From Gemmatimonadota bacterium (GTDB taxonomy: Bacteria > Gemmatimonadota > Gemmatimonadetes > Longimicrobiales > Gaopeijiaceae): DNA of 64,000 bases. This document shows, piece by piece, positions 32,170-34,531 of this stretch. How positions within the stretch are numbered: the stretch's first letter is position 1; each line of letters opens with the position of its first letter. Below the pieces are notes generated by a model. It did not search any database. It was given only the letters and a program-made list of their open reading frames with translations, and was not told the DNA's origin. The DNA is taken from the NCBI GenBank assembly GCA_009692205.1, contig SHZR01000009.1:1-64000 (forward strand), in the 5' to 3' direction. Position numbers and translations under genes: made by a program.

Positions 32170-32649
32170 ATGAGTCGGTCCCTCAATAAGGTCATGCTGA
32201 TCGGAAACGTGGGCAGTGAGCCGGAGATTCGCGCGACCAGCGCAGGAGCCCGTGTCGCCAAGCTCTCGATCGCGACGAACCGGTCGTGGTCCGATCGCTC
32301 GGGGCAGCAGCAAGAGAAGACGGAGTGGCACCGTCTCACGTTCTTCGGGCGCCTGGTCGACATCGTCGAGCAATACGTCAAGAAGGGCGACCGGCTCTAC
32401 GTCGAGGGCCGCATCGAGTACTCCCAGACCGAGGGAGAGGGCGGCCCGAAGTACTGGACCGACATCGTCATCAACGAAATGGTGATGCTCGGCTCGAGTG
32501 GTGGTGGCGGTGGCGGTGGCGGCGGTGGTGGTGGCGGTGGCGGCGGTGGTGGTGGCGGCGGGGCGCGGCGCGGAGGCGGCTTCTCCGAGTCCGGCGGCGG
32601 CAGCCCACAGCCTCCAACGAACGAGCCCGACGACGACCTGCCGTTCTAG
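32170..32649 (+). CDS. ssb: Single-stranded DNA-binding protein
   Basis: SSB coats single-stranded DNA in replication and repair and recruits partners through its acidic tail. The OB-fold (residues 1-109) contains NKVMLIGNVGSEPEIR, WHRLTFFGRLVDIVEQYVKKGD, YVEGRIEYSQ and YWTDIVINEM. The linker begins with 21 consecutive glycines (bases 32500-32562), followed by RRGGG and further glycines. The tail ends in DDDLPF, the partner-binding peptide. The ATG follows CAGGAG. The total of 159 residues is usual for the family. The glycine run is coded by GGT/GGC microsatellite-like repeats, so its length may vary between strains. Confidence 0.97.
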   Translation: MSRSLNKVMLIGNVGSEPEIRATSAGARVAKLSIATNRSWSDRSGQQQEKTEWHRLTFFGRLVDIVEQYVKKGDRLYVEGRIEYSQTEGEGGPKYWTDIVINEMVMLGSSGGGGGGGGGGGGGGGGGGGGGARRGGGFSESGGGSPQPPTNEPDDDLPF

Positions 32650-33069: not shown

Positions 33070-33279
33070 CTACGGAGTCGCGCTCGGCTGGTCGGACGCC
33101 GTCTCCTGAGTCGAGACTCCGTCGCTCTCACGAAGGTGCTGGTAGATCGATCGACGCGTGAGTCCGTACAGCACGACGCGGCTCAGGAACTCCGGATCAG
33201 ACCGTTGCACCTCTTCCGCCTGGGCCGCGATGTCGCGTGGCAAGCGCACAGACAGCTGCACGGAACGCGTTTCCCACAT
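33070..33279 (-). CDS. Ribbon-helix-helix (CopG-like) DNA-binding protein
   Basis: A 69-residue protein. The strand VQLSVRLPRDIAAQAEEVQ followed by two helices (PEFLSRVVLYGLTRRSIYQHL) fits the ribbon-helix-helix fold, a dimeric DNA-binding module of autoregulators and antitoxins. The ATG at 33279 follows GAGGTG, a good site; an alternative start at 33318 lacks one. It is the first gene of a two-gene unit with the hypothetical gene at 32657. Upstream is the hairpin-rich spacer 33401-33560, which could hold its operator. A toxin-antitoxin role is not supported, as the partner is not toxin-like. Confidence 0.7.
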   Translation of the reverse strand: MWETRSVQLSVRLPRDIAAQAEEVQRSDPEFLSRVVLYGLTRRSIYQHLRESDGVSTQETASDQPSATP

Positions 33280-33400
33280 AGACACACCTCGCCCAGGGAA
33301 AGATTGTGGAAAAGTCACACTCTCGGGAGCACGGGCCCAGGCGCGTGGTGCGCGCTACAGGCCGATGGCAGAGGTGCTTAGCGATCCTCGAGACGGAGGT

Positions 33401-33560: not shown

Positions 33561-33655
33561 GCGCCGAGTGGAAGTTCATGCGAGTCACGGAGTTTGGCCG
33601 GAGTCTTCCAACGCGCGACGCCACGCGATGTCGCACAGTTTTTACTGAAAAGTGA

Positions 33656-33963
33656 CCTAGTGAAGCTCTGCACAAGTCTGGCGCCCCGCGTTGCGGTGCC
33701 ACGGCCCCAGATCCGAGGCGGAGCGACGAAGGCATAGCCGTAGCTACGTCGAGGAGCTCCAACGACGGAGATGGGGCCGTGCCATCGCAACCCACGGACA
33801 TGTTGCAGATCTTCCGCTTGTTTGGGGGCGCAGGGGGATCGCGGCCCAGGAGGTCGTCACTCCTCCTCGCCGTACGGACCAGTACGACTCGTCGTCGTTC
33901 CTACTCCTGGTCTCGCGAGCCCCCTGCGCGCGGGGCACCAGGCTTGTGCAGAGCTTCCCTAGG
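33656..33963. mobile_element. MITE-like element with 36-bp terminal inverted repeats
   Basis: Arms 33656-33691 and 33928-33963 are inverted copies agreeing at about 32 of 36 positions, starting CCTAG and running through a shared GAAGCTCTGCACAAG. Inside are two further inverted-repeat pairs: 33690-33715 with 33766-33791, and 33828-33852 with 33904-33929. A single strand could therefore fold into a stem with two branched hairpins. CTAG at each end (33657-33660 and 33959-33962) could be a four-base target duplication, though it is self-complementary and may belong to the repeat. No transposase is coded. The right end supplies the TAG stop of the gene at 33959. The structure resembles a non-autonomous element. 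Confidence 0.6.
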
Positions 33964-34531
33964 GAAGCGCGGAGCGGAGGAACGCCTCGAGGGCGACCGG
34001 CTCGAAGGCGAGAAAGCGGTCGCGGAGGTCCGCGGGATCCGTTTCGCGGAAGATGAGTGCCGTGCGGTGCACCCGGCGCGAGATCCTGTCCTCGAACGCG
34101 ATGTAACCGCGCCACGCGCCTCCATCGCGGAAGGAGCGCAGGTAGGCGATCCAGGGATTCCCTCCGAACTCGAACAGGCGCGCCTCGACAGTCGTCGGGG
34201 CCTCCGCGGTCGGAGCCGCAGCGGAGTCGTCCAGATCGTGGAGGTGCGCGGCCGGATACTTTGCGAGGTCCGCACACCATTCCTCGAACGGAGGCAGCGG
34301 CAGGAGGCTCTCGCAGTAGTTCACGAACGCCGCCAGCGGGTCCGCGGGCGAGCGCTCTCCGAACCCCGCTTCGAGTGCCTTCCGATAGAGCGGCCGCACG
34401 GCTTCGCGAGAGAGCAGTCGAATGAGACCGCGCGCCTGGCGTTTACGGTACGCCCCGTATTGAATCAAAAGCTCATCCCGGGCGAACTGCCCGTGCGCAG
34501 TATCGAGTGCGCGAAGATCCTCGAAGACCAA
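33959..34531 (-). CDS. Hypothetical protein ending in the inverted repeat
   Basis: A 190-residue soluble protein from a TTG at 34531, 14 bases after the stop of the upstream gene. I do not recognise the family. The N-terminal half is helical (LIQYGAYRKRQARGLIRLL). The middle has LPLPPFEEWCADLAKYP, shared in pattern with the protein at 32657. The C-terminal half is probably beta/alpha (NPWIAYLRSFRDGGAWRGYI). The TAG stop lies within the terminal inverted repeat of the 308-bp element, so the original C-terminus may have been replaced when the element inserted. Confidence 0.55.
   Translation of the reverse strand: MVFEDLRALDTAHGQFARDELLIQYGAYRKRQARGLIRLLSREAVRPLYRKALEAGFGERSPADPLAAFVNYCESLLPLPPFEEWCADLAKYPAAHLHDLDDSAAAPTAEAPTTVEARLFEFGGNPWIAYLRSFRDGGAWRGYIAFEDRISRRVHRTALIFRETDPADLRDRFLAFEPVALEAFLRSALP

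Follow-up and report, generated by a model that had tools for sequence, protein, structure and literature searches.

Several families of small, gene-less bacterial repeats have been described. MITEPsy1 of Pseudomonas syringae, a 100-nt element with the ends GGAAGGTCTGAAAAAG, is tied to a single insertion sequence (IS), the IS5-family ISPsy2 (PMC3189936), and mobilisation by IS630-Spn1 has been proposed for RUP of Streptococcus pneumoniae (review PMC2229807). REPINs and BIMEs consist of two inverted imperfect hairpins that form one long hairpin, with compensatory changes and a proposed strand-specific fold (PMC3116915). Correia/NEMIS, ERIC, RPE and similar repeats are small, gene-less, highly structured and interspersed, each in one or a few related lineages and with ends of its own; the review that covers them describes no exchange of ends around a constant core (PMC2229807). 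The element described here is likewise small, gene-less, highly structured and interspersed, and differs from each of these systems in ways that are set out below.

In a 64,000-nt stretch of a Gemmatimonadota genome (the window), the initial annotation had noted nested inverted repeats with a three-way branched fold, flanked by CTAG as a possible target duplication, and both features were borne out. A gene-less mobile element of 298 bp occupies positions 33661-33958 (plus strand), between a left CTAG at 33657-33660 and a right CTAG at 33959-33962; CTAG conforms to the YTAR-type target of IS5-derived MITEs (PMC3189936). The terminal inverted repeats, delimited by arm pairing, cover 33661-33690 on the plus strand (TGAAGCTCTGCACAAGTCTGG...) and 33929-33958 on the minus strand (GGAAGCTCTGCACAAGCCTGG..., from the end inward). 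Enclosed by them are an inner hairpin on the plus strand (H1, 33690-33791), detected both as an inverted repeat and in the fold, a variable linker with little conservation among copies (33792-33827), and a second inner hairpin on the minus strand (H2, 33828-33929) that is a diverged inverted copy of H1. The outer arms (33656-33690 and 33929-33963) are 91% complementary over 35 nt, and the inner pairs are 85% (33690-33715 with 33766-33791) and 94% complementary (33828-33843 with 33914-33929). The minimum-energy RNA fold of 33640-33980 consists of the long outer stem with H1 and H2 as its branches, at -202.6 kcal/mol compared to a mean of -142.8 (sd 5.9) for shuffled sequences, none of 100 of which equalled the native energy (z = -10.2). 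Within the 298 bp, the ORF list gives merely overlapping chance frames and no transposase gene.

The element lies directly behind a host gene at 33959-34531 (minus strand, 190 aa, no Pfam match), with the next host gene at 33070-33318 (minus strand, 82 aa). The initial annotation took the host gene to have been trimmed and its stop codon to be supplied by the right end of the element, neither of which agreed with the orthologues. These occur in many relatives, and the eleven inspected share the same protein end, mostly ...FLRSALP* or FLRSTLP, have no element behind it, and are followed a few hundred bases downstream by the counterpart of the 82-aa gene; in this between-species comparison, the site is empty and syntenic in all eleven. 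The junction in the window reads ...CGCTTCC-CTAG-[element]-CTAG-GTCACTTTTCAGTAAAAACTG. When the insert is removed, the host sequence becomes CTTCCCTAGGTCACTTTTCAG..., which aligns to CTTCCCTGACCGAATTTTCG in G003, the closest relative, and to CCCTAGCAGTTTTTTCC in G001. Because the orthologues stop at the same position, the gene has not been trimmed and its protein, including the C-terminus, is unchanged. Judged from these alignments, the TAG held by the right CTAG is the native stop of the host gene (minus strand), part of the target site and not a contribution of the element, and the 298-bp segment is an inserted non-autonomous element. The opposing view, that the segment is an assembly artefact or else ancestral DNA, coding or intergenic, is refuted by the empty site and by homologues in dozens of independent assemblies, single-contig genomes among them (e.g. 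G008 and G029); nothing was found in its favour, and its probability is negligible. Elsewhere in the window, the gene for a single-strand-binding protein (32170-32649) encodes a long glycine run from a GGT/GGC repeat (32498-32580), which may vary in length.

Ends on stop codons were also frequent among related elements. About 80 elements of 160-350 bp were delimited in Gemmatimonadota, Bacteroidota, Krumholzibacteriota and Proteobacteria, all sharing the core hairpin described below; the boundaries of 83 were set by automatic arm alignment, which includes a few poor calls with over-long arms. CTAG was present in at least one end window of 52 of 81 elements and in both end windows of 26, over a background of 2.8% per window. 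In 33 of 80 delimited elements the TAG of the end CTAG was the in-frame stop of an open frame that ran for at least 150 codons, compared to 52 of 401 comparison CTAGs from these loci (p = 3e-8), a bias that arises because the target is CTAG. The position directly behind a stop codon, and its recurrence in these 33 elements, could also point to a domesticated host regulatory RNA or 3' UTR structure, such as a terminator or mRNA stabiliser, and the core of the element covaries as structured RNA does (see below). However, the insertion at this site is a lone one that is missing in relatives, the CTAG target accounts for the stop-codon bias, no terminator-like T run follows the element, and neither the window region nor any of ten diverse loci matched Rfam above the gathering score. 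We consider a host RNA of this kind highly improbable.

Related copies were detected by BLASTN in 24 of the 59 genomes searched. The genome that carries the window element has one further copy (L070, G000:C46:24277-24483), in which most of H2 is deleted. The outer arms pair within each copy and fall into many unrelated sequence types among copies, and the inner hairpins are conserved. Half-copies in the BLASTN output were considered as possible ends of a larger autonomous element; most of those closely inspected proved to be full-length, with diverged halves or different arms. Small GC-rich palindromes of ~25-45 bp (e.g. GGGGCACCCGTGCGCGAAGCGCGTGGGTCGGG) were inserted at differing points inside H1 or H2 of some copies (L055, L056, L057, L059, L062, L064, L067, L069, L072, L080, L084, L089 and L002), forming a second, smaller repeat within the first, and a small palindrome also interrupts H1 of L070. 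In the searches made, neither the window element nor the core pattern was found on a phage, plasmid or virus; for a related element from Deltaproteobacteria, a Martelella plasmid contained a single weak, partial match. In many relatives (e.g. G025, G031, G007 and G027), core matches were no more than a few dozen bases away from a contig end, and core-bearing elements probably break short-read assemblies and are hence undercounted.

A transposase with matching ends was found in an order-level relative (G051), which also holds a full-length copy of the window element. The ends of the window element (GGAAGCTCTGCACAAG, type GGAAGCTCTGCACAAGT) correspond to those of a 1210-bp autonomous element (L280) with GGAAGCTCTGCACA at both ends and CTAA on both flanks, whose 322-aa transposase scores 328 bits against the IS5 model (cut-off 140). 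E. coli IS5 has ends that are similar in kind (GGAAGGTGCGAATAAG) and CTAG or YTAR targets. Together with the CTAG duplication, the second (deleted) copy, the copies in 24 of 59 genomes and the empty site, this partner upholds the original reading of a non-autonomous element, bounded by terminal inverted repeats, that had moved in. By profile search, PF05598 and PF01609 are both absent from the genome of the window, and a partner IS of the exact window end type is absent from that genome and its genus; an autonomous IS with window-type terminal repeats was sought in G016, G017 and the window's own genome, where only decayed solo ends were found. Since no IS5-type transposase was found there, the window element is probably immobile in its own genome now, an orphan that is either stranded or dependent on something that was not assembled. 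Solo window-type ends (CTAGGGAAGCTCTGCACAAG) without a partner arm or core lie on G016 contigs (L207, L210, L213, L216, L218, L219 and L222) and are either decayed elements or one-ended remains.

Other end types of core-bearing elements also matched an IS of the same genome. The type shared by L223 and L043 in G034 matches an IS5/IS1182-like IS that scores above the cut-off of the IS5 model, and that of L294 in G024 an IS1182/IS5-like IS that is below curated cut-offs. In G029, the type of L273 and L254 (also L269) matches an IS630 that scores above the cut-off. RUP, for which IS630-type ends are proposed, is non-autonomous in the same manner as these relatives, but it belongs to another organism and has other ends, and the review describes no core that it would share with IS5-type elements (PMC2229807).

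H1 contains a conserved core at 33712-33769 (plus strand), in which covarying stems surround the motifs nAGGC, AGG and AACG. A pattern derived from H1, applied to one genome per species, matched in Gemmatimonadota, Bacteroidota (including Phaeodactylibacter, Lewinella and Chitinophagales), Krumholzibacteriota, Martelella (Alphaproteobacteria), a Deltaproteobacterium and others, and the matches sit inside foldback elements with other arms. In an anchored alignment the core has the layout S1-nAGGC-S2-..-CGAAGG-apical stem-TCG-AGGn-S2'-AACGnn-S1'; S2 shows GC, AT, CG and TA at the same positions, and the unpaired bases are invariant. Covariation across 26 sequences was 0.369, compared to 0.123 after shuffling (0 of 500 shuffles as high) and at most 0.104 for slid structures, with two-sided changes at four of five S2 pairs and two of three S1 pairs. 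These values come from an alignment limited to one loop length and from a hand-anchored count, MAFFT having shifted S2 by one base wherever the inner loop was shorter. Because the search pattern prescribed the apical stem, the conservation of this stem is partly built in, and it contributes nothing to the test; in later loci recovered with a covariance model of the core (R1), the apical stem varies too and still pairs. In elements with IS630-like ends (L250, L251, L254, L255, L256, L259 and L148), the stem contains a second conserved mismatch, with ACCGAG opposite TCGAAT.

R1 scored the window core at 83.2 bits, a model of which the window sequence is itself part, and the core-like part of H2 (33850-33906, minus strand) at 17.4 bits (E = 0.018). 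It identified the core in 66 of 395 Gemmatimonadota genomes, and matches per genome reached 110 in a Bacteroidetes MAG, 66 in Phaeodactylibacter luteus and 36 in P. xiamenensis. The idea that g79 genomes keep a host copy of the core at a single conserved locus was discarded, the inspected loci being insertions with IS630-like ends. Within the partner ISs, R1 detected no core; the two matches it gave in those loci fall in elements abutting an IS630.

These results bear on whether the window element is an ordinary IS5-derived MITE, in which two ends and filler remained after an internal deletion and the hairpins would be functionless long inverted repeats. Its ends, CTAG target and size fit such an origin, and MITEPsy1 provides a precedent: it too has IS5-type ends (GGAAGGTCTGAAAAAG, compared to GGAAGCTCTGCACAAG here), a 4-bp duplication at CTAG or YTAA, no gene and a partner IS with matching ends. 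However, the core is missing from the partner ISs, is common to elements with IS630 ends and has undergone compensatory change, whereas for MITEPsy1 the paper reports no conserved structured core and none common to other end types (PMC3189936). An ordinary MITE of this sort is therefore an unlikely explanation.

The strand on which the core folds was examined in short (one-hairpin) and long elements, in which copies are not independent. In 23 short elements, G-T pairs outnumbered A-C mismatches on the H1-sense strand (75 vs 36, p = 0.0003), which folded better in 19 of the 23. The arms of long elements, the class of the window copy, showed no such bias (41 vs 60). H2 was better folded on its own sense (minus) strand in 41 of 50 long elements, and the strand preference of H1 alone was not significant (31 of 50). 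These preferences fit a folded single strand (RNA or ssDNA) better than a cruciform, and we infer that the core is a strand-specific folded RNA or ssDNA; they do not separate the two.

An inverted hairpin pair with compensatory changes and a strand-specific fold is also what characterises REPINs and BIMEs (PMC3116915), and the element might accordingly consist of two inverted hairpins moved as ssDNA by a RAYT/Y1 (HUH) transposase, with coincidental IS-like ends. REPINs are moved by RAYTs, but Y1_Tnp is absent from the window's own genome (G000), and among 390 genomes it was found in 9 of 66 with the core compared to 96 of 324 without (p = 0.006), an association in the wrong direction. The CTAG duplications and the IS5 and IS630 ends fit DDE transposases instead. 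We rejected a RAYT/REPIN origin, which we regard as even less credible than a host RNA.

Nearly identical bodies were found between different ends. In G007, L039 and L076 have 96.5% identity across 255 bp of body, while their ends differ on both sides and each end matches its own partner. In G024, L050 (ends CTCTGAACAAG) and L054 (ends CAGCCCGTGGTAGAAG) have bodies that are 95.5% identical; L053 and L054 share their ends, and their bodies are only 91.9% identical, below the value for L050 and L054. At L271:747-2071, an IS630 (1163 bp) has inserted precisely at the CTAG that ends a core-bearing element, and the two share this CTAG, the target of IS5- and IS630-type elements alike. This arrangement shows a possible route to the exchange of ends; the IS is at one end only in L271, and no intermediate of an exchange was seen. 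In Phaeodactylibacter luteus, a core match at L272:2740-2925 (30 bits) carries the end of a neighbouring IS630 (CTTGACAGACCACTAG) on the right but not on the left and may be a decayed or half-exchanged copy.

On these findings taken together, the window element is probably a MITE of two modules, with IS5-recognised ends and a structured core that is carried between IS types. The first module would be the terminal inverted repeats, recognised by an IS5-family transposase that inserts at YTAR/CTAG with a 4-bp duplication and acts in trans; here, insertion hit the CTAG of a TAG stop codon and left the gene intact. The second would be the structured core, comprising H1 and its diverged inverted partner H2, which selection probably keeps as a folded single strand and which would not be an IS remnant. 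Such a core would persist by riding between the terminal repeats of any resident IS with CTAG as its target, be it IS5/IS1182 or IS630, with ends exchanged when an IS inserts at a shared CTAG and the second arm evened out by hairpin-templated copying within the palindrome once one arm has changed. A more far-reaching version, in which the folded core is the real selfish unit, a phyla-wide RNA or ssDNA motif that swaps ends among unrelated CTAG-targeting IS families and has its arms re-symmetrised by hairpin-templated copying, is one we advance tentatively and with more doubt than conviction.

By architecture the element classifies as a MITE, and by its ends as IS5-type, on the sequence features at hand: it is short and without a transposase gene, has terminal inverted repeats, a target duplication with an empty site, several copies and an autonomous partner whose ends match, and combines IS5-like ends with a YTAR target. 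An interior derived from the partner IS, which is usual though not universal for MITEs, was not found by R1. The initial annotation had suggested a new family of branched MITE. The family is indeed widespread, but what looks new is a covarying core common to elements with the ends of different IS families and not the branching. We found no earlier description of a structured core that travels between transposase families in the open-access literature; one may exist elsewhere.

The usual explanation of MITEs is that each arose by shrinkage from a single parental IS, and the conserved part of this element comes from no IS that was examined. The coincidence of CTAG with stop codons explains how such elements build up in gene-dense genomes without breaking genes. 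If the proposed explanation is true, gene-less elements can change transposase, and there would be a small structured nucleic-acid motif with a putative partner, a motif that R1 can detect in other genomes.
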